Shown here: positions 4,109 to 52,624 of the stretch, in pieces
How positions within the stretch are numbered: position 1 is the stretch's first letter
How the letters are laid out: each line of letters opens with the position of its first letter
Assembly (NCBI GenBank): GCA_025924315.1
Contig: JAICIO010000033.1
Coordinates: 1-56,700, forward strand
DNA length: 56,700 nt
Reading direction: 5' to 3'
Source of the DNA: Phycisphaerae bacterium
GTDB lineage: Bacteria > Planctomycetota > Phycisphaerae > Tepidisphaerales > Tepidisphaeraceae
The notes under the pieces: generated by a model
What the model was told of the DNA's origin: nothing
Database searches by the model: none
Seen by the model: only the letters and a program-made list of their open reading frames with translations
Position numbers and translations under genes: made by a program

Positions 4109-4567
4109 GCTCGCGATTGTAACCGCGATGCCCGTCCCCGCGCGTCATCCCGATCGCGGCGGCATTCGGTTCATGAGCAAACCAATGGACGCAGCGTCTC
4201 TTACCCGTGACGTCATGTCGACGTCGGGGAACACGCGCGCGCAGCTCGCGCTAAGAAAGAATTATTCGTGCCCATTCGTGTCCATTCTAGCCAAAGGCAT
4301 CCGCGTATATCTGCGTGCATCTGGCTTCGACCACCTCAGTCGAGTCGCGGTTCCAAGTCTTTCTCGCGAAAGAGTTTTTCGTTTTCGTCTTGCGTTTCGT
4401 AAACCACCAATTACTATTTTCGGCGATCCGGGCGTTTGGGACTGACGTACGGATTCTGATCTCTCGCCAATTGTGTGAAAACCGAAGCCGGTGATGGAGT
4501 ACTGGCGTGGCGGGTGTCGCGGAAACCAACTGGGCTAAGTTGGGGCCGCGATTGATCGGGGAAAGGC
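4109..4567. other. 459-base gap between divergent genes
   Basis: No open frame here has convincing coding character. The gap carries a short array of 10-base words (listed separately) and should hold the promoters for both the zinc-ribbon gene and the flagellar locus. I could not pick a clear promoter by eye. Confidence 0.5.
4264..4325. repeat. two short arrays of 10-base words
   Basis: ATTCGTGCCC and ATTCGTGTCC (4264-4283) are followed by ATTC. Sixteen bases further on come ATCCGCGTAT, ATCTGCGTGC and ATCTGGC (4299-4325). Both are imperfect tandem repeats of period 10. They lie in the gap upstream of the flagellar locus and resemble the period-7 arrays elsewhere in the window in being short, degenerate and intergenic. 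Confidence 0.55.
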
Positions 4568-8264: not shown

Positions 8265-8295
8265 GTGCATCGTTGTGGGCAAAGGAGTGCCGACT

Positions 8296-9678
8296 ATGGC
8301 AAGGATTCTGGTAGTTGACGATCAGGAGATGATGCGGGATTCGCTCGCGACGACGCTGGTGCGCGAAGGCCATGAAGTCGTCGCTGCCGGTGACGGCGCC
8401 GCGGCGCTCACGCGCGTGTCCAGCGGCACGCGCTTCGATCTGCTCATCACCGATCTCAAGATGCCGAAGATGACGGGTATCGAATTGCTCGCCGAAGCGA
8501 AGAAGCTTCGCCCGGAATTGCCGGTCGTGCTGATGACCGCGTTCGCGACCGTGACGACCGCCGTCGAAGCGATGAAGCTCGGCGCGTACGACTACATTCA
8601 AAAGCCGTTCGACGGCGACGAGATCAAGCTGCTCGTCGATCGCACACTCGAACACAATCGCCTCATTCGCGAAAACCTCGCGCTGCGCAGCATGACTGAG
8701 ATCAGCTCGCCGCGACCTCTCGTCGGCAACGGCGAGGCGATGACCGATGTGAAGCAGAAGATCGACCTCGTCGCCAAGAGCGCCGCCACGGTGCTCATTC
8801 GTGGCGAGAGCGGCACGGGCAAGGAAGTTGTCGCCCGTGCGATTCACCTCGCAAGCGATCGCCGCGAGCGTCCGATGCTCGCGGTGAACTGTGCGGCGCT
8901 TTCGGAGAACCTGCTCGAATCGGAACTTTTCGGCCACGAAAAGGGCGCGTTCACGGGCGCCGACCGGATGCGTCGCGGGCGATTTGAATTGGCGGACGGT
9001 GGTACGTTGCTGCTCGACGAGATCAGCGAGATCGCGGCGGGCCTGCAGGCGAAGTTGCTTCGCGTGCTCCAGGAAAACCAGTTTGAGCGCGTCGGCAGCT
9101 CACTCACACAGCAGGTCGATGTGCGGGTGGTCGCCACGAGTAATCGCGATCTGGAAAGTGCGGTGGCGGAAGGCAAGTTCCGGCGCGATTTGTTTTATCG
9201 GCTGAACGTGGTCCCGATCGAGCTTCCGCCGCTTCGGGCGCGGTCGGAAGATATTCCGGAACTCGCACGTCATTTCCTCCACCAAATCGCCAAGCGCGAG
9301 AATTCCGCGTTCCGGCACATCGAGTCGGAGGCGGTGCGTTTATTGCAACGATACAACTGGCCGGGAAATGTGCGTGAGCTACAGAACATTATTGAAAGGG
9401 CCAGCGTACTTGAGACGCAGCCGGGCATGATTCGCGCCGCCACGATCGAGCCGTGGCTGAAACAGTCGAATGTTTCGGCCGGCGCCGGCGCAGAAAGCCT
9501 GGCCGGAAAACCGCTGGCGGATATCGAGAAACAGGTGATTTTGAGCACGCTGCAACAGTTCCGCGGGCATCGCATTAAAACAGCGACGGCACTGGGCATC
9601 GGCGTGCGAACGCTGGGGATGAAGCTCAAGAAGTGGCGCGAGGAAGGCGAACTCGCGGAAGTCGAAGCGAGCGCATGA
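8296..9678 (+). CDS. sigma54-dependent response regulator, flagellar (FleR/FlrC-like)
   Basis: 460 residues from ATG 8296, supported by AAAGGAG at 8281-8287 and by the receiver domain beginning at once (ARILVVDDQE). The receiver has the acceptor D53 (LLITDLKMP). The AAA+ domain follows, with Walker A GESGTGKE near residue 168 and the sigma54-contact loop GAFTGA near 216, then the sensor region and a Fis-type helix-turn-helix at the C-terminus (HRIKTATALGIGVRTLGMKL). It would open sigma54 promoters when phosphorylated by the preceding kinase. The nearest candidate target is the promoter-like site at 9779-9795 before flgB. Confidence 0.9.
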   Translation: MARILVVDDQEMMRDSLATTLVREGHEVVAAGDGAAALTRVSSGTRFDLLITDLKMPKMTGIELLAEAKKLRPELPVVLMTAFATVTTAVEAMKLGAYDYIQKPFDGDEIKLLVDRTLEHNRLIRENLALRSMTEISSPRPLVGNGEAMTDVKQKIDLVAKSAATVLIRGESGTGKEVVARAIHLASDRRERPMLAVNCAALSENLLESELFGHEKGAFTGADRMRRGRFELADGGTLLLDEISEIAAGLQAKLLRVLQENQFERVGSSLTQQVDVRVVATSNRDLESAVAEGKFRRDLFYRLNVVPIELPPLRARSEDIPELARHFLHQIAKRENSAFRHIESEAVRLLQRYNWPGNVRELQNIIERASVLETQPGMIRAATIEPWLKQSNVSAGAGAESLAGKPLADIEKQVILSTLQQFRGHRIKTATALGIGVRTLGMKLKKWREEGELAEVEASA

Positions 9679-9704
9679 ACTGCGCGGCAGCGCAGGAAAT
9701 GCTC

Positions 9705-9777
9705 GTTGCTCATTGCATGTTGCAAGTTGGCATGAGCGTATTCCAACGGGCAACTTGCAACACGCAACATGCGATGC
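9705..9777. repeat. inverted pair of GTTGCNN heptamer arrays (before flgB)
   Basis: Left arm: GTTGCTC, ATTGCAT, GTTGCAA, GTTGGCA in exact 7-base steps from 9705. Right arm: CCAACGG, GCAACTT, GCAACAC, GCAACAT, GCGATGC from 9743. The arms are largely complementary and can form an imperfect hairpin with an 11-base loop. It lies between the response regulator and flgB. Confidence 0.8.
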
Positions 9778-9778
9778 G

Positions 9779-9795
9779 TTGGCACGCGATTTGAT
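9779..9795 (+). promoter_or_regulatory. near-consensus sigma54 promoter before flgB
   Basis: TTGGCACG-CGAT-TTGAT fits the sigma54 pattern YTGGCACG-N4-TTGCW with correct GG-to-GC spacing (GG 9781-9782, then ten bases). The -12 element reads GA (9793-9794) instead of GC, which would weaken it. The flgB ATG lies 27 bases downstream. The gene just upstream encodes a sigma54 activator, which supports the reading. Confidence 0.5.
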
Positions 9796-9821
9796 ATGGG
9801 GCACGGGAAGGGCTCGGGCAA

Positions 9822-10223
9822 ATGTTCATCGAGCGAATGCTGAACGATGGAAACGCGCCGCTGCTGGAGCAGATGCTGCGTTTCACGACCGAACGGCACA
9901 AACTCCTCGCGGAGGATGTCGTCAACGTCAGCACGCCCGGTTTCCGGCAGAAGGATCTGTCGGTCGAAAAATTTCAGCGGTTGTTGTCTGAGCGTCTGGA
10001 GACGCGCGACCGCTCGCCCCGGGGCACCGTGGGTTTTGAAGACATCGGAGCGGATGTCGAAAACCCGACGCGGAACATCCTGTTTCACGACGGCAACAAC
10101 CGGTCGATGGAACAGCTGATGAGCGACGAAGCGAAGAACGCGATGATGCACAATATGGTCATCGAGCTGCTTCGCAAACAGTTCAGCGAGCTGGAGAGCG
10201 CGCTGCGGGAACGGGTCACGTAA
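9822..10223 (+). CDS. flgB: flagellar basal-body rod protein FlgB
   Basis: 133 residues, the usual length. The N-terminus shows the rod-protein signature RFTTERHKLLAEDVVNVSTPGF (export-related N-V-S-T-P-G-F motif), and the C-terminus has the conserved helix (ELLRKQFSELESALRERV). The middle phrase LFHDGNNRSMEQLMSDEAKN also fits FlgB. FlgB forms the proximal rod in the periplasm with FlgC, FlgF, FlgG and FliE. First gene of the basal-body run, with the sigma54-like site and a heptamer hairpin upstream. Ribosome-binding site is weak (GAAGGG about 12 bases away). Confidence 0.93.
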   Translation: MFIERMLNDGNAPLLEQMLRFTTERHKLLAEDVVNVSTPGFRQKDLSVEKFQRLLSERLETRDRSPRGTVGFEDIGADVENPTRNILFHDGNNRSMEQLMSDEAKNAMMHNMVIELLRKQFSELESALRERVT

Positions 10224-10234
10224 CGAGGAGGTTT

Positions 10235-10301
10235 GTTGCGTGTTGCGTGTTGCATGTTGGATGGAGCCGACAAGCAGCGGGCAACGGGCGACGAGCGAAT
10301 T
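10235..10301. repeat. inverted pair of GTTGCNN heptamer arrays (flgB-flgC gap)
   Basis: Left arm GTTGCGT, GTTGCGT, GTTGCAT, GTTGGAT (10235-10262). Right arm GCAGCGG, GCAACGG, GCGACGA, GCGAATT (10274-10301). It fills almost the whole 80-base gap and ends 2 bases before the flgC ATG, so no normal ribosome-binding site precedes flgC. Confidence 0.8.
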
Positions 10302-10303
10302 AA

Positions 10304-10708
10304 ATGTTCGACGCACTCGATATCGGCGCAAGCGGATTGGCGGCTCAGCGTGCCCGGATGGATACCATCGCGGGCAACACGGCCAACATCAACTCGACCA
10401 AGAACGAGAAGGGCGAAAACGTTCCGTATCGCCGGCGGATTGCGATGTTCGCGCCCGGGCAAGCGGGCGATCCATCGAAGCCCGGCGTGCACCTGGCGAA
10501 GATCATCCAGGACGCCTCGCCGTTTCAGAAGCGCTACGAGCCCGGCCATCCGCAGGCGGACAAGGACGGCTACGTGCTCTATCCGAACATCGATATGGCG
10601 GTCGAATACGTGAACATGCTCGAAGCCAGCCGAGCGTACGAAGCGAACGTGACAATGATGGAAACGACGAAGTCGATGATCAACTCGACCCTGAGGTTGA
10701 TCGCATAA
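10304..10708 (+). CDS. flgC: flagellar basal-body rod protein FlgC
   Basis: 134 residues. The N-terminus has the rod signature (DIGASGLAAQRARMDTIAGNTANINST). The C-terminus has the classic FlgC ending, with PNIDMAVEYVNMLEASRAYE followed by NVTMMETTKSMINSTLRL. The phrase VPYRRR is also typical. Part of the proximal rod with FlgB. The ATG follows directly on a heptamer repeat arm. Confidence 0.95.
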   Translation: MFDALDIGASGLAAQRARMDTIAGNTANINSTKNEKGENVPYRRRIAMFAPGQAGDPSKPGVHLAKIIQDASPFQKRYEPGHPQADKDGYVLYPNIDMAVEYVNMLEASRAYEANVTMMETTKSMINSTLRLIA

Positions 10709-10715
10709 GCTGCTG

Positions 10716-10781
10716 GTTGCGTGTTGCGCGTTGCTGGTTGAGCGCCACAACAGACAACAAGCAACTTGCAACGCGCAAACG
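10716..10781. repeat. inverted pair of GTTGCNN heptamer arrays (flgC-fliE gap)
   Basis: Left arm GTTGCGT, GTTGCGC, GTTGCTG, GTTGAGC (10716-10743). Right arm ACAACAG, ACAACAA, GCAACTT, GCAACGC, GCAAACG (10747-10781). The loop is only 3 bases. The right arm ends 2 bases before the fliE ATG, and an upstream in-frame TTG at 10766 lies inside this arm. Confidence 0.8.
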
Positions 10782-10783
10782 AA

Positions 10784-11095
10784 ATGATCAACGGAGTCAA
10801 CAACAATTTGAGCTTGGGCAAGATTGCGGGCGGCGGAGTGACGCCCGGATCGAGCGGCGCTGGAAGCGCCGGCGGGTCGAGCTTTGCCGACACGCTGAAG
10901 AACAGCATCAACGAGGTCTCGAAGCTGCAGCAGGATGCATCGCAGGCCGTGCAGGACCTCGCCACCGGCAAGACCGAAGACGTCACAGGCGTGATGACCG
11001 CGATGGAAAAGAGCGACATGGCGTTTAAGACGCTTCTCTCGATTCGCGCGAAGCTCATGGATGCGTACGAAGAGATCAAGAATATGCCGATTTGA
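10784..11095 (+). CDS. fliE: flagellar hook-basal body protein FliE
   Basis: 103 residues from ATG 10784; an in-frame TTG at 10766 lies inside a repeat arm and is less likely. It has the FliE pattern: a flexible Gly/Ser-rich N-terminus, then SFADTLKNSINEVSKLQQDA, VQDLATGKTEDVTGVMTAME and the C-terminal AFKTLLSIRAKLMDAYEEI. FliE links the MS ring (FliF) to the proximal rod. The order flgB-flgC-fliE-fliF is the common one. Confidence 0.93.
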   Translation: MINGVNNNLSLGKIAGGGVTPGSSGAGSAGGSSFADTLKNSINEVSKLQQDASQAVQDLATGKTEDVTGVMTAMEKSDMAFKTLLSIRAKLMDAYEEIKNMPI

Positions 11096-11105
11096 TTGGG
11101 TGTCT

Positions 11106-11170
11106 GTTGCGTGTTGCTTGTTGCGCGTTGTCTGTACAACATGCAACTAACAACCTGCCACAAGCACACA
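11106..11170. repeat. inverted pair of GTTGCNN heptamer arrays (fliE-fliF gap)
   Basis: Left arm GTTGCGT, GTTGCTT, GTTGCGC, GTTGTCT (11106-11133). Right arm ACAACAT, GCAACTA, ACAACCT, GCCACAA, GCACACA (11136-11170). Same architecture as the three preceding gaps. Confidence 0.8.
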
Positions 11171-11195
11171 AGCCATGGCCATGGAGGGCCGGGCG

Positions 11196-12839
11196 ATGGA
11201 TGCACTGAAAGCACAACTTACGAAGATTCAGCAGCAGCTGAGCGGGCTTACGGCCAGCCAGAAGATGCTGACGGCGGCGCTGGCGGCAATCATGGTCATG
11301 ACGCTGCTGTGGTGGGGGCGTTACGCATCGACCGCGGACATGGTCGCGGTGCTCGACCAGCCGATGCGCGCCGAAGACATCGGCCGAATCAAAACAACTC
11401 TCACCTCGGTCGGCATCGACGCGCGCGTGGATGGCGATCGCGTGATGGTTCCCGCCGACAAAAAGGAAGAAGCCGTCGCGACGCTCGCGATGGACCAGAT
11501 GCTTCCCGATGACTTCTCCAGCGCGATGACGGAGACGCTCAAGGACCTCAACCCGTTCACGCCCTCGGAAATCGCGGACAAAACGATCAACGACGCGATG
11601 CAGCGAGAGCTCGCTTCGTACATTCGTCATATGCCGGGCGTGAGCAACGCCGCTGTATTCCTGCCGACCGTCGCGACGAATCCGTACGACGTGCAAACGC
11701 AACCGACGGCGAGCATCAACGTGATGATGCGCAGTGGCGGTAAGGCGGATTCGAAACTTGCGTACGGCATCGCGTCTCTCGTTCGCGGGGCGAAACCCGG
11801 TTTGGAATACTCGAAGATCAACTTGATCTTCGACGGGCACAACTTTCCACTCGAAGATCATCAGGGCATAGCCGGCGGCGGCGGAGGCGAACTGCTCGAG
11901 CGCGAGCAGGAAGCCGAGCACACCTATCAGCAGAAGCTGAAAGATCAGCTCGCGTATTTTGGTCCGGGCGTTTTCGCGTCGGTTAAGGTGAAGATCAACA
12001 ACAGCATCACCACCAGCGAAGAAAACAAGGTGACCGATATCAAAACGAAGGAGAGCCAGACCGAACATACCGAAGAACGGACAAATGCCCCGCAGGCGAC
12101 GTCGGGCGAGCCCGGTGTGGTGCCGAACGCCGGCATGTCCGCGCAGGCGCCAGCGACCGATCAATCCTCCGAACCCGCGAGTGAAACGATCAAGGACAAC
12201 AACAAGTTTGAGGTCCTTCCGTCGCGCCTCCACGCCACCAGCCAGAACTACGGCGGCGATGCGACGATCCTCTCTGCCGACGTGCGTCTCCCGCGCAGCT
12301 ATTTCGTTCGTTATGCGAAACGTCTCAGCAGCAACAACAGCACCGATGATAAGGCGGTTGAAGCGGTGATTGCTGATCAGCTTCCGAAGATCATCGCGGG
12401 GGTGAAGAACGTGCTGAGCCTCCGCGAAGAGGGGGCGATCACGGTCGACACGTACATGGACGATCTCCCCGAACTCGCGGCCGCGACGACCGTCGAACCG
12501 GCCTCGTCGGCGATGACGCTGTCCCTGGGCGATCACGCAAAGGAAGTCGCCGTCGGCGCGCTCGCCATCATCAGCCTCTTCATGGTCGCGATGATGGTTC
12601 GCAAGAGCACGCCCGCGCCAATCATCGCCGCCCCGGTTGAATTGAAGGAAGCGCCGGCGCTCGTCGGCGGAGAGGACATCGCGGGGGAAGCCGTCGAAGG
12701 CAACCCGATGCTCGACGGCATGGAACTCGATGAAGATGCGATCAAAGCCCAGCAGATGGTCGAGCAGGTTTCCACGATGGTGAAAGAAAATCCCGACGCC
12801 GCCGCGAACCTCGTCAAGCGCTGGCTGAATCGCACGTGA
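11196..12839 (+). CDS. fliF: flagellar MS-ring protein FliF
   Basis: 547 residues from ATG 11196, chosen because GGAGGG (11183-11188) lies 7 bases upstream; in-frame ATGs at 11175 and 11181 are alternatives. N-terminal membrane helix (MLTAALAAIMVMTLLWWG), ring-building periplasmic domains of YscJ/FliF type (PMRAEDIGRIKTTLTSVGID, RELASYIRHMPGVSNAAVFL), a charged, disordered middle, and a C-terminal helix (VGALAIISLFMVAMMVR) followed by a cytoplasmic acidic tail of about 80 residues that should bind FliG. Length fits the family. Confidence 0.95.
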   Translation: MDALKAQLTKIQQQLSGLTASQKMLTAALAAIMVMTLLWWGRYASTADMVAVLDQPMRAEDIGRIKTTLTSVGIDARVDGDRVMVPADKKEEAVATLAMDQMLPDDFSSAMTETLKDLNPFTPSEIADKTINDAMQRELASYIRHMPGVSNAAVFLPTVATNPYDVQTQPTASINVMMRSGGKADSKLAYGIASLVRGAKPGLEYSKINLIFDGHNFPLEDHQGIAGGGGGELLEREQEAEHTYQQKLKDQLAYFGPGVFASVKVKINNSITTSEENKVTDIKTKESQTEHTEERTNAPQATSGEPGVVPNAGMSAQAPATDQSSEPASETIKDNNKFEVLPSRLHATSQNYGGDATILSADVRLPRSYFVRYAKRLSSNNSTDDKAVEAVIADQLPKIIAGVKNVLSLREEGAITVDTYMDDLPELAAATTVEPASSAMTLSLGDHAKEVAVGALAIISLFMVAMMVRKSTPAPIIAAPVELKEAPALVGGEDIAGEAVEGNPMLDGMELDEDAIKAQQMVEQVSTMVKENPDAAANLVKRWLNRT

Positions 12840-12855: not shown

Positions 12856-13860
12856 ATGGCCGATCTGAATGGAGTGAAAAAATCCGCGATTCTGCTGCTC
12901 ACCCTAAGCCAGGATGAGGCCGCGGAGATTCTTAAGCGACTTCCGCCCGAGGCGGTTGAGGAAGTCAGCCGCGAAATCGCATCGCTCGGCGAGATCTCCC
13001 TCACCACGCGCAAGGACGTTTTCAGCGAATACTACAACCTCGCACTCGCCAACTCATATCTCAGCGAAGGCGGGCTGGAATACGCCAAGACGCTGCTTAC
13101 CAAATCGCTGAACGAAGCCGATGCGGCGCGCGTGATCAAGCAGGTCACGCAGCAGGTGCAGACTACGCCGTTTTCGTTCCTGCAAAAGGCGGAATCGGAA
13201 AACCTTCTCACGTTTATTCAGGACGAGCATCCGCAGACGATCGCGCTGATCCTCGCGCACCTGCCGGCTCAGAAGGCGAGCGAAATTCTCGTCGGCCTGC
13301 CGAGCCAGAAGCAGATCGAAGTCGTGAAGCGCGTCGCCAACATGGAGCAGACGAACCCGGAAGTGATCAAGGAAGTCGAGCGAGGCCTCGAGCATCGACT
13401 CTCGGACATCGTCAGCCAGACATTCGAAAAAGCCGGCGGCGTCGAGAACGTCGCGGAGATGCTCAACCTCGCGGATCGTTCGACGGAAAAAGGAATCATG
13501 GAAGGGCTCGAAGCGGAAGACCCGGATCTCGTCGAACAGATCCGCCGGCTCATGTTCGTCTTCGAAGACATTCTGCTCGTCAACGACAAAGGTATTCAGT
13601 CGGTCCTCAAGGAAGTCGACAACGAAGAGCTGTCGCTCGCCCTCAAGACCGCGAGCCAGGAGCTGCGCGACAAGATCTTCAAGAACATGTCCGAGCGCGC
13701 CGCCCAGCTCATCCAGGAAGACATGCAGTACATGGGCCCGGTGCGCGTGACCGACGTCGAAGCCGCTCAGCAGAAGATCGTCGACATCGTGCGCCGCCTC
13801 GAAGACGCCGGCGAAATCATCATCGCGGGTCGAGGTGGCGAGAAGGAAATGGTTGTCTAA
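12856..13860 (+). CDS. fliG: flagellar motor switch protein FliG
   Basis: 334 residues, the normal length. The N-terminal part (KSAILLLTLSQDEAAEILKR) binds FliF. The middle domain contains the signature EHPQ in DEHPQTIALILAHLPAQKAS. The C-terminal domain holds charged torque helices (LVEQIRRLMFVFEDILLV, LKTASQELRDKIFKNMSERA). FliG sits on the cytoplasmic face of the MS ring and couples rotation to the stator. It starts 16 bases after fliF. Confidence 0.96.
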   Translation: MADLNGVKKSAILLLTLSQDEAAEILKRLPPEAVEEVSREIASLGEISLTTRKDVFSEYYNLALANSYLSEGGLEYAKTLLTKSLNEADAARVIKQVTQQVQTTPFSFLQKAESENLLTFIQDEHPQTIALILAHLPAQKASEILVGLPSQKQIEVVKRVANMEQTNPEVIKEVERGLEHRLSDIVSQTFEKAGGVENVAEMLNLADRSTEKGIMEGLEAEDPDLVEQIRRLMFVFEDILLVNDKGIQSVLKEVDNEELSLALKTASQELRDKIFKNMSERAAQLIQEDMQYMGPVRVTDVEAAQQKIVDIVRRLEDAGEIIIAGRGGEKEMVV

Positions 13861-13866
13861 GGAAGG

Positions 13867-13935
13867 GTTCAGCGTTCGGGGTTCAGGGTTCAGTGTGCTA
13901 CTGAACTGACCCCTGAACCCTGACCCCTGACCCCT
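13867..13935. repeat. inverted pair of GTTCAGG heptamer arrays (fliG-fliH gap)
   Basis: Left arm GTTCAGC, GTTCGGG, GTTCAGG, GTTCAGT (13867-13894). Right arm CTGAACT, GACCCCT, GAACCCT, GACCCCT, GACCCCT (13901-13935). Same geometry as the GTTGCNN arrays but a different word. The right arm ends at the base before the fliH ATG. Confidence 0.8.
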
Positions 13936-14649
13936 ATGGGCCTGATTAAAGCCACCAACGCACCCACCACCCTCCAGGCCTTCTCGATGAAAGATATCGA
14001 GACGCAGGCGCGGGGGCTGATTTTGCGCGCGCAGCAGCAGGCGGAGCAGTTGCTCGCGGCGGCGCAGTCGGAGGCGGAGTCGCTTAAGGCGAAGGCGATG
14101 GCCGAGGGCTTCGCCGAAGGTCGGCAGAATGGCATCACCAAGGGGACTGAGGAAGGGAAGAAACTCGCGCTTCAGCAGGGCTTGAGCGAGCATCGCACCC
14201 AATTCGCGAACGTTTTGAAGGCTCTGAACGCCGCGATGCAGGAGCTGAATAAATCGCGGCAGGAGCTCGACGCCGCCGCGAAGACTGAGGTGATTCACCT
14301 GGCCGTGTCGATCGCGCGGCGCGCGACGAAGCGCCAAGGCGCTTTCGATCCGACCATGCTCACCGACAACGTGCACGAGGCGATGAAAATGGTCACGCAA
14401 TCGACCGACGTGCGCATCGCCATTCATCCGCAGCAGAAGCAGGTGCTGCTCGATGCCCTGCCGAAGCTGTCGCTCGCGTGGCCCAAGCTTCAGCATGTTC
14501 AGTTGATCGAGGATGCGAAGCTCTCGCCCGGCGGATGCCGCCTCCTGACCGCCGGCGGAGAAGTCGATGGCGACCTCGATCGCCAGATCGACCGCATCGC
14601 GGCGGATCTCGTTCCCAACAAGGACGAAAACAATGGGGCACAGGCATGA
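13936..14649 (+). CDS. fliH: flagellar assembly protein FliH
   Basis: 237 residues. After a short N-terminus comes a long Ala/Gln/Glu coiled coil (ILRAQQQAEQLLAAAQSEAE) with the small-residue pattern AEGFAEGRQNGITKGTEEGK, typical of FliH/YscL. The C-terminal third (EVIHLAVSIARRATKRQG onward) is the globular domain that binds the ATPase FliI. FliH regulates FliI and docks it on the export gate. The ATG directly follows a repeat arm without a ribosome-binding site; ATG 13987 (MKDIETQ) is an alternative start. The stop overlaps the fliI ATG. Confidence 0.88.
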   Translation: MGLIKATNAPTTLQAFSMKDIETQARGLILRAQQQAEQLLAAAQSEAESLKAKAMAEGFAEGRQNGITKGTEEGKKLALQQGLSEHRTQFANVLKALNAAMQELNKSRQELDAAAKTEVIHLAVSIARRATKRQGAFDPTMLTDNVHEAMKMVTQSTDVRIAIHPQQKQVLLDALPKLSLAWPKLQHVQLIEDAKLSPGGCRLLTAGGEVDGDLDRQIDRIAADLVPNKDENNGAQA

Positions 14650-23196: not shown

Positions 23197-23288
23197 TGAG
23201 CTGTCCGAAAAAAATACGTAAATACGTAATTACGTAAGAAGAGCCGCGCGGCCCTTTATGTAATGACGCATTTACATAATTGAGGCCC

Positions 23289-23507: not shown

Positions 23508-23513
23508 AGTTTT

Positions 23514-23590
23514 GCTTGTCGCTTGTCACGCGCCGCTGGTTGGTCTCAACTTGTGGCAACTCGCAACCAGCAACGAGCAGCCAGCAACAT
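23514..23590. repeat. heptamer arrays, GCTTGTC / GCAACNN (gmk-rpoZ gap)
   Basis: Left arm GCTTGTC, GCTTGTC, ACGCGCC, GCTGGTT (23514-23541). Right arm GCAACTC, GCAACCA, GCAACGA, GCAGCCA, GCAACAT (23556-23590), all in 7-base steps. The right arm belongs to the GTTGCNN family seen in the flagellar gaps. The left arm is more degenerate. Confidence 0.7.
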
Positions 23591-23591
23591 A

Positions 23592-24188
23592 CTATATCCC
23601 GCCAGGGGATTTTTTCTGGCGAATCAGGCGGGAAATCTCTTCGACCGCCCGATTGATGTCGTCATTGAAGATCATGTCGTCAAACGCACGGCTTCCCTTG
23701 GCCATCCAGATTTCCCGTTTTGCCCCGCGAAAACGCTTCTGAATCGACTCCTCGGTGTCGCGTCCGCGCTCGCGGAGGCGCTGCAGCAACGCCTGCTCGT
23801 CCGGCGGCATGACGAAGATCATCAGGGCATCCGGGTATTGGAATCGCACCTGCAGCGCGCCCTGCACGTCGATCTCGAGCAGCACGTCTTCGCCCGCCCG
23901 CAGGTAATCAAGCGTCGGATGCTTGGGCGTGCCGTAATACTCGTCCCAGACGCTGGCGTACTCGAGAAACTCGCCGTTCTCGAGTTTCTTGAAGAATGCT
24001 TCGGGTTCGAGGAATTCGTAGATTTTCCCTTCGGCATCCTTCGGCGTGCGCTTGCGTGTCGTGGCGCTGACGATGTACTTCAGGTGCATCTTCTCGGCCA
24101 GCTTGCGCGAGATCGTGCTCTTGCCGACCCCCGCGGGGCCGACGAGCACGATCAAGTGGCCTGGCGATTTAACGTCGCTTACCATCAT
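23592..24188 (-). CDS. gmk: guanylate kinase
   Basis: 198 residues. P-loop GPAGVGKSTISRKL at the N-terminus, then the GMP-binding region (SATTRKRTPKDAEGKIYEFL) with a Tyr-containing ASVWDEYYGTP, and DVLLEIDVQGALQVR. Converts GMP to GDP with ATP. Two Met codons are adjacent at the start (24186-24188 and the next codon). Upstream lies a REP-like palindrome, then a small membrane gene and yicC. Confidence 0.95.
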   Translation of the reverse strand: MMVSDVKSPGHLIVLVGPAGVGKSTISRKLAEKMHLKYIVSATTRKRTPKDAEGKIYEFLEPEAFFKKLENGEFLEYASVWDEYYGTPKHPTLDYLRAGEDVLLEIDVQGALQVRFQYPDALMIFVMPPDEQALLQRLRERGRDTEESIQKRFRGAKREIWMAKGSRAFDDMIFNDDINRAVEEISRLIRQKKSPGGI

Positions 24189-33835: not shown

Positions 33836-33846
33836 CTGGATCCGTT

Positions 33847-33867
33847 AATCACTAATCAACAATCAAT
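33847..33867. repeat. single AATCANN heptamer array before serC
   Basis: AATCACT, AATCAAC, AATCAAT in exact 7-base steps, followed by AAATCC and the serC ATG at 33874. Only one arm is present. No ribosome-binding site is visible between the array and the ATG. Confidence 0.6.
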
Positions 33868-33873
33868 AAATCC

Positions 33874-44813: not shown

Positions 44814-44900
44814 GTTGATTATTGATTAACTCGTGTAACCGGCGAGCTTGCTCGCCGGTTCCTTCGCACCCCGATGTTCATCAATAATCAATAATCACTA
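44814..44900. repeat. nested element: heptamer arms around a strong hairpin
   Basis: Outer left arm GTTGATT, ATTGATT (44814-44827). Outer right arm ATCAATA, ATCAATA, ATCACTA (44880-44900). Inside lies a perfect 11-bp palindrome aaccggcgagc-tt-gctcgccggtt (44837-44860) followed by a short T-poor tail. It lies between the convergent foldase and alpha-toroid genes and may act as a terminator for both. Confidence 0.7.
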
Positions 44901-44902
44901 CC

Positions 44903-52441: not shown

Positions 52442-52450
52442 CGCCATTTT

Positions 52451-52608
52451 GGATTTCGGATTGCCGATTCTGGATTGAACAGCATCCCAAGCCGATCAGT
52501 TGCATCCCGATCGGATTTCTAGTAACTTTCCCCACCCGTCGATCCGGACGGGCCTAGAATTCGTACAATTGTTGCGGTCCGAATCCGCAATCCAAAATCC
52601 AAAATCGA
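52451..52608. repeat. inverted pair of GGATTNN heptamer arrays (before rpmA)
   Basis: Left arm GGATTTC, GGATTGC, CGATTCT, GGATTGA (52451-52478). Right arm GAATCCG, CAATCCA, AAATCCA, AAATCGA (52581-52608). The two arms are complementary but are about 100 bases apart, so the rpmA promoter region forms a large loop between them. The right arm ends 16 bases before the rpmA ATG. Confidence 0.7.
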
Positions 52609-52624
52609 GAAGGTTCGGTGATTT

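Follow-up and report, generated by a model that had tools for sequence, protein, structure and literature searches.

REP and REPIN elements (BIMEs) are dispersed, intergenic sequences that occur as inverted pairs around short, variable loops; some of them lie near stop codons, and they are tied to RAYT genes. Long SSRs, with units of 5-11 nt, and the cyanobacterial STRRs include heptanucleotide units and are biased toward intergenic DNA. To our knowledge, bacterial heptamer repeats between genes have been ascribed either to polymerase slippage or to G-quadruplexes, and no function has been found for them.

The closest known system to the one described here is that of the GGGANTN heptamer hairpins of Xanthomonas. 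Heptameric repeats of the form (GGGANTN)n in Xanthomonas and GGGGA(T/C)T in Nostoc were reported in 2015 (PMC4692102). The Xanthomonas repeats prefer four units, form 70-75 convergent inverted pairs per genome, and are about 90% intergenic, mostly between co-directional genes, with a bias toward stop codons and with variation between related species (PMC4692102). In both genera a single G-rich word per genome was found, which was read as a quadruplex (PMC4692102). The TAACTGA repeats of the Beggiatoaceae are direct repeats of a single word, with 2-6 units; they are intergenic, patchily spread, and located next to start codons (MacGregor, 2015; PMC4679880). REP units, for their part, are palindromes with GTAG/CGTC-type ends (PMC3733652).

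The window, that is, the whole stretch of 56,700 nt that was analysed, contains flagellar genes separated by gaps in which an earlier note had reported inverted GTTGCNN arrays. This report was confirmed. The window has 11 copies of the pattern GTTGCNNGTTGC, where chance predicts 0.10 and 100 shuffles gave at most 2, and nine of the 11 copies fall within the regulator-flgB, flgB-flgC, flgC-fliE, and fliE-fliF gaps. Similarly, the three-word pattern GTTGCNNGTTGCNNGTTGC was found 34 times in the genome and its reversed control once. GTTGC arms were scanned for with a fixed 30-nt template (TGCNN GTTGCNN GTTGCNN GTTGCNN GTTG, 22 specified bases per arm), and genes were called with a simple codon-usage predictor, the genomes being draft assemblies. 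The operon and its hairpins are arranged as follows, with template scores given for the left and right arms and energies for the predicted RNA folds.

8275-9678, plus strand: gene for a sigma-54-dependent response regulator, upstream of flgB (Pfam Response_reg, Sigma54_activat, HTH_8).
9700-9773: regulator-flgB gap, GTTGC-class hairpin with a 14-nt loop between its arms (9700-9729 and 9744-9773); template 21/22 in both arms; -31.1 kcal/mol, z -3.0.
9822-10223, plus strand: flgB, assigned by gene order and orthologues (tblastn, 17 relatives, 45-65% identity, same order), without a Pfam match.
10230-10297: flgB-flgC gap, GTTGC-class hairpin with an 8-nt loop between its arms (10230-10259 and 10268-10297); template 20/22 and 18/22; -43.5 kcal/mol, z -8.0.
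10304-10708, plus strand: flgC (Pfam Flg_bb_rod, Flg_bbr_C).
10711-10777: flgC-fliE gap, GTTGC-class hairpin with a 7-nt loop between its arms (10711-10740 and 10748-10777); template 22/22 and 21/22; -30.9 kcal/mol, z -1.7.
10784-11095, plus strand: fliE (Pfam FliE).
11101-11166: fliE-fliF gap, GTTGC-class hairpin with a 6-nt loop between its arms (11101-11130 and 11137-11166); template 21/22 and 20/22; -28.1 kcal/mol, z -2.2.
11175-12839, plus strand: fliF (Pfam YscJ_FliF; matched in 45 of 61 relatives).
12856-13860, plus strand: fliG (Pfam FliG_N, FliG_M, FliG_C).
13864-13936: fifth hairpin, with another word (GGTTCNN class), filling the fliG-fliH gap; found as a period-7 array; -44.3 kcal/mol, z -5.3.
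13936-14649, plus strand: fliH (Pfam FliH).

The arms of the four GTTGC hairpins match 18-22 of the 22 template bases, and not every word reads GTTGC: ATTGC stands at 9712, and the right arm at 10268-10297 includes GCGAC and GCAGC. Hairpin formation in the transcript, which had also been proposed, is supported by the predicted folds of all five flagellar-gap hairpins (-28.1 to -44.3 kcal/mol, z -1.7 to -8.0). In the flgC-fliE gap the period-7 array begins immediately behind the flgC stop codon. Two right arms were said to end only 2 bases before an ATG, leaving no room for a ribosome-binding site; the distances to the next annotated ATG are in fact 48, 6, 6, and 8 nt in the four gaps, in order. 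In addition, a missing Shine-Dalgarno sequence in these gaps is unremarkable, because such 4-mers are rare throughout the genome (23% of predicted genes, background 9%). No match to Rfam covariance models was found between 6000 and 16500 at E values up to 1. The window also holds the following arrays of this kind:

23513-23588: GTTGC-class hairpin whose left arm has decayed, adjoining the stop codon of a minus-strand gene at 23592-24185 (template scan and pattern count).
33845-33870: lone AATCA (TGATTNN-class) arm between plus-strand genes (period-7 array scan).
44817-44902: TGATT-class hairpin with short arms.
52445-52613: two inverted GGATTNN-class arms about 110 nt apart (period-7 array scan).

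The flagellar-gap arrays are members of a genome-wide hairpin repeat class that is strongly non-random and not specific to flagella. A sample of 1.16 Mb of contigs of this genome (G000), not picked for arrays, contains 45 period-7 arrays, of which 38 are intergenic even though non-coding DNA makes up 17% of the sample and coding DNA about 83%. Their dictionary includes GTTGCNN, CAGTTNN, AGCCAGN, TGATTNN, GGTTCNN, GGATTNN, ATGAANN, and TTTCGNN, among others, and one plan is common to at least eight word families. Neighbouring arms form 87 inverted pairs of the same word, six direct pairs (mostly nested hairpins), and two unrelated pairs, which share no 5-mer and neither of which is convincing. 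Free mixing of arms from different classes was considered and rejected: it is rare, the only clear case being that of pepA in the relative G001, with locus L200 as a possible second. At two separate places in this genome (C6:5319-5498 and C16:3256-3398), a hairpin of TTGATTA words is nested within the loop of a hairpin of GGTGATT words.

Smaller families, of period 8 and period 10, have the same layout, with 10 inverted pairs each and arms of 26-29 nt, while periods 9, 11, and 12 yield two, zero, and one inverted pairs, respectively. Gap hairpins with the period-8 words CCAAGACG and CACGAAGA and the period-10 words ACACGAATGA, whose arm length matches that of the heptad class, were seen on contigs C1, C2, C3, C5, C7, C12, C13, and C15 of this genome (e.g., C7:50792-50869 and C15:3625-3702); their sites in the window are 4263-4292 and 23208-23241. 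Outside the family, the strict GTTGC hairpin pattern was found in just two others among the 293 planctomycete genomes drawn, and it matched 29 of 2.9 million viral contigs.

The arms follow a rigid architecture. The same template is present in both arms of 27 GTTGC hairpins, whose loops range from 2 to 45 nt and have no common sequence, and 38 of 44 GTTGC arms comprise four or five words, partial ends counted. Across all families the median arm length is 33 nt (IQR 26-34); arm lengths are fixed at about 30 nt and the spread of copy numbers is not geometric, with a few expanded arms such as that of 10 units at C12:45858. In the GTTGC class the word is constrained and the spacer free: the entropy of each position is low at G, T, G, and C (0.10-0.31 bits), amounts to 0.91 bits at the third base, and reaches 1.79 and 1.51 bits in the spacers. 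A single arm folds at a mean of -4.4 kcal/mol, compared with -32.6 kcal/mol for the pair of arms, and array hairpins fold at -23 to -47 kcal/mol.

The two arms of GTTGC-class hairpins are independent of each other. Spacer complementarity between arms is 0.338, compared with 0.384 in shuffled hairpins, and word-position mismatches affect both arms together in three cases, where 4.5 are expected. Spacers of adjacent heptads are identical at a rate of 0.377, exactly that expected by chance, which bears out the view of the earlier note that the arrays are not recent duplications of a block. Templated copying from one arm to the other was rejected on account of this spacer complementarity and the absence of a signal of shared mismatches. 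As spacers are non-complementary and adjacent heptads resemble each other only at chance level, both slippage and arm-to-arm copying fail as explanations.

The arrays have a marked preference for the region just behind stop codons. In co-directional gaps of G000, 29 of 48 arrays start 0-6 nt behind the upstream stop, against 11 expected; in G001 this is true of 22 of 32, against 10 expected, at loci partly picked for carrying arrays. The preference persists in residual gaps of at least 80 nt in G000 (six of 18 stop-adjacent, 0.8 expected), and only six of the 48 arrays lie within 6 nt of a start codon. Some arrays sit in divergent gaps or within genes. Many gaps of the ribosomal-protein operon, whose genes were identified by Pfam or by gene order, also contain them: rpsM-rpsK, rpsK-rpoA, rpoA-rplQ, rpsH-rplF, L14-L24, and others in G000, and rplV-rpsC, rpsC-rplP, rplP-rpmC, and rplN-rplX in G001. 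The arrays therefore are neither specific to flagellar genes nor complete terminators; they lie within ribosomal-protein and flagellar operons, and the T-run of an intrinsic terminator is absent after the right arms in the gaps of the window.

Two cases lie within genes. In pepA (L055:2646-4247 and L249), which encodes leucyl aminopeptidase, a whole 78-nt GGTTCNN hairpin lies in frame in a loop and encodes the peptide GSGFGVQGSGKKKRLGAEPRTLNPEP; most relatives carry a short linker at this position, and in G001 the left arm in this loop is of the GGTTC word and the right arm of AAATCNN. In rimO, a single CAGTT arm replaces linker sequence, with no clear gain in length.

Comparison with relatives reveals turnover. 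The order regulator-flgB-flgC-fliE-fliF-fliG-fliH-fliI is retained in most of about 20 family members. In several of them the flagellar gaps are 0-40 nt long and free of arrays, and no period-7 array was found in 20 kb around fliF in G007, G023, G018, G006, G009, G011, and G017; no clean single-step empty site or target-site duplication emerged, and divergence among the relatives is too high for base-exact junctions. Other relatives have heptad hairpins in the same flagellar gap but with different words: in the fliG-fliH gap, the word is GGTTCNN here, GCAGTAN in G013, GTTGCTR in G014, TGCAGAA in G001, and GGCAGAN in G002. The load of arrays thus varies widely within the family: G001 has 12 period-7 arrays in 114 kb of contigs not picked for arrays, compared with none in the 20 kb around fliF of the seven genomes just listed by handle. 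In many hairpins of relatives (L099-L110, L181-L200), the heptad arms enclose a further stem that resembles a terminator, either GAAGGC..GCCTTC or AAAAGGC..GCCTTTT. Array-free relatives often have a GC-rich hairpin of the CGGCGGAGCCG type before fliF, and hairpins in general may be favoured in the fliE-fliF gap.

Between the congeners G001 and G022 (nucleotide identity 90% in fliG and 78% in fliF), the hairpins persist with a change of word. Most of seven orthologous gaps have a hairpin at the same place in both genomes, but where the arms of G001 use GTTGCTR words those of G022 use GTTGYCA, on the left and on the right; in one of the seven, a hairpin in G001 corresponds to unrelated sequence in G022. 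Over six aligned arms, the core is unchanged at 101 of 108 positions and the spacer at 28 of 78 (p=1.5e-17). Nearly all changes are T>C, G>A, or C>T, a direction that is biased by the choice of G001 loci with the GTTGC pattern, while the contrast between core and spacer is less affected.

Several features of the Xanthomonas repeats recur here: a 7-base word with fixed and degenerate positions in at least two units, a mostly intergenic location, a preference for four units, convergent inverted pairs, and proximity to the upstream stop. Unlike those repeats, the arrays described here use many words per genome, have main words without GGG, and include families of period 8 and 10. They resemble the TAACTGA repeats in being intergenic heptamer arrays with a patchy phylogenetic spread, but differ in that they form inverted pairs, use many words, and lie at stops instead of starts. 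With REP and REPIN elements they share dispersed, intergenic inverted pairs and a variable loop; however, single arms are not self-complementary, unlike REPs, and no paired arrays flank the Y1 transposase loci, unlike the case of REPINs with their RAYT. They are distinguished from long SSRs and STRRs by a fixed number of units, spacers with free bases, pairs that are as a rule inverted, and the lack of a slippage signature.

The explanation that we favour, while putting its probability slightly below even, is that of a REPIN-like, non-autonomous, dispersed and lineage-specific hairpin repeat, spread and rewritten by a factor that recognises a word in fixed steps. The unit consists of two inverted arms of about 30 nt around a short unrelated loop, each arm with about four steps of a word of 4-6 fixed and 1-3 free bases. 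Some cellular factor would recognise the word in 7-nt steps, and through this recognition the repeats would be kept and spread as a population, with drift at the free bases and retention at the fixed ones. Genome-wide rewriting of spacers could follow from a shifted preference of the factor or from copying from new masters. Their accumulation right behind stops may reflect either the least constrained part of a short operon gap or an insertion preference. This explanation draws on the dispersed, intergenic placement of many word families in same-word inverted pairs, the fixed arm length shared by periods 8 and 10, constrained words with free spacers, independent arms, gain and loss among relatives, persistence with rewritten spacers in congeners, nested hairpins, the in-frame hairpin of pepA, and stop adjacency; the rimO arm and the failure to find a clean empty site or a target-site duplication count against it. 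The earlier note had considered selfish elements that tolerate only gene gaps, a proposal close to this explanation, but its "only" does not strictly hold in view of pepA and rimO. RAYT/Y1 transposases were rejected as mobilisers: no paired arrays were found at 30 PF01797 loci (flanks up to 1.5 kb) and one further G000 locus, where three lone, weak period-7 stretches were seen, and array-free genomes carry the Y1 family just as commonly.

A selected function in RNA or DNA would likewise be compatible with the proximity to stops and with the conserved cores. Once transcribed, the arms must pair into stable stem-loops, which may plausibly influence mRNA ends or the release of ribosomes. In the main rival explanation, possible if doubtful, the hairpin is a selected mRNA element: a stem-loop behind the stop would protect the upstream message, take part in its maturation, or slow the ribosome as it terminates. 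There is a precedent in E. coli, where REPs at most 15 nt from a stop codon are reported to act on the upstream message or the terminating ribosome (PMC12306157). Such an element would be in keeping with the stop adjacency of arrays in long gaps, the filling of co-directional gaps in highly expressed operons, the fold energies, and the cores kept by orthologous arrays. However, neither presence nor word is conserved at orthologous gaps, the spacers are non-complementary and stem strength is therefore below its maximum, and arrays also occur in divergent gaps and gene interiors. Control of flagellar translation, for which the earlier note had invoked the rod genes, is not indicated: the same hairpins lie in ribosomal-protein operons of this genome and a relative, the flagellar gaps of many relatives are array-free, and arrays abut the upstream stop and not the downstream start.

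It is unlikely that the arrays are DNA sites for a protein family, with four sites in 7-bp steps, inverted pairs, and a separate protein for each word family. The fixed core with free spacer, the independent four-step arms, the limited dictionary of each genome, and the directional, genome-wide change of spacers between congeners are all consistent with bound DNA. Yet a candidate protein is lacking, loops vary from 2 to 45 nt, and the sites lie behind stops inside operons instead of at promoters; in addition, the period-8 and period-10 families hold the same arm length, which suggests that length, and not the number of steps, is constrained.

Long SSRs produced by polymerase slippage at 7-nt units, with a second arm made by hairpin template switching, are an improbable origin. 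In many bacterial genomes no long SSRs are more common than those with heptanucleotide units (PMC4679880), slippage would account for the few expanded arms, and arrays would be absent from genes since 7 is not divisible by 3. Against this, adjacent spacers are alike only at chance level, arm spacers are not complementary, copy number is fixed near four, and inverted same-word pairs far exceed direct ones. The Xanthomonas repeats, for which a G-quadruplex or i-motif role was proposed, share the four-unit preference and inverted layout (PMC4692102), and the GGTTCNN class has G runs, but such elements are highly improbable here, since GTTGC, CAGTT, AGCCAG, TGATT, and ATGAA lack G-tracts and yet form four-unit arms, so that the four-unit rule cannot generally stem from quadruplex formation.

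Beyond the work on Xanthomonas and Nostoc, the tests of arm independence and of spacer switching are new. Four-step arms, non-complementary free spacers, words without G-tracts, and directional rewriting of spacers speak against both slippage and quadruplexes, and they raise a testable question, namely what recognises or copies the array words. We tentatively entertain a general, previously unrecognised class of word-coded hairpin repeats, with inverted arms of about 30 nt in 7-, 8-, or 10-nt steps behind stops, which would occur in Planctomycetota and Xanthomonas, perhaps also in other phyla, and be propagated and rewritten genome-wide by dedicated copying or recognition machinery. The hairpins also bear on annotation, through the in-frame peptides that conserved proteins such as PepA gain from them and through the large stem-loops that they introduce into the operons of highest expression.
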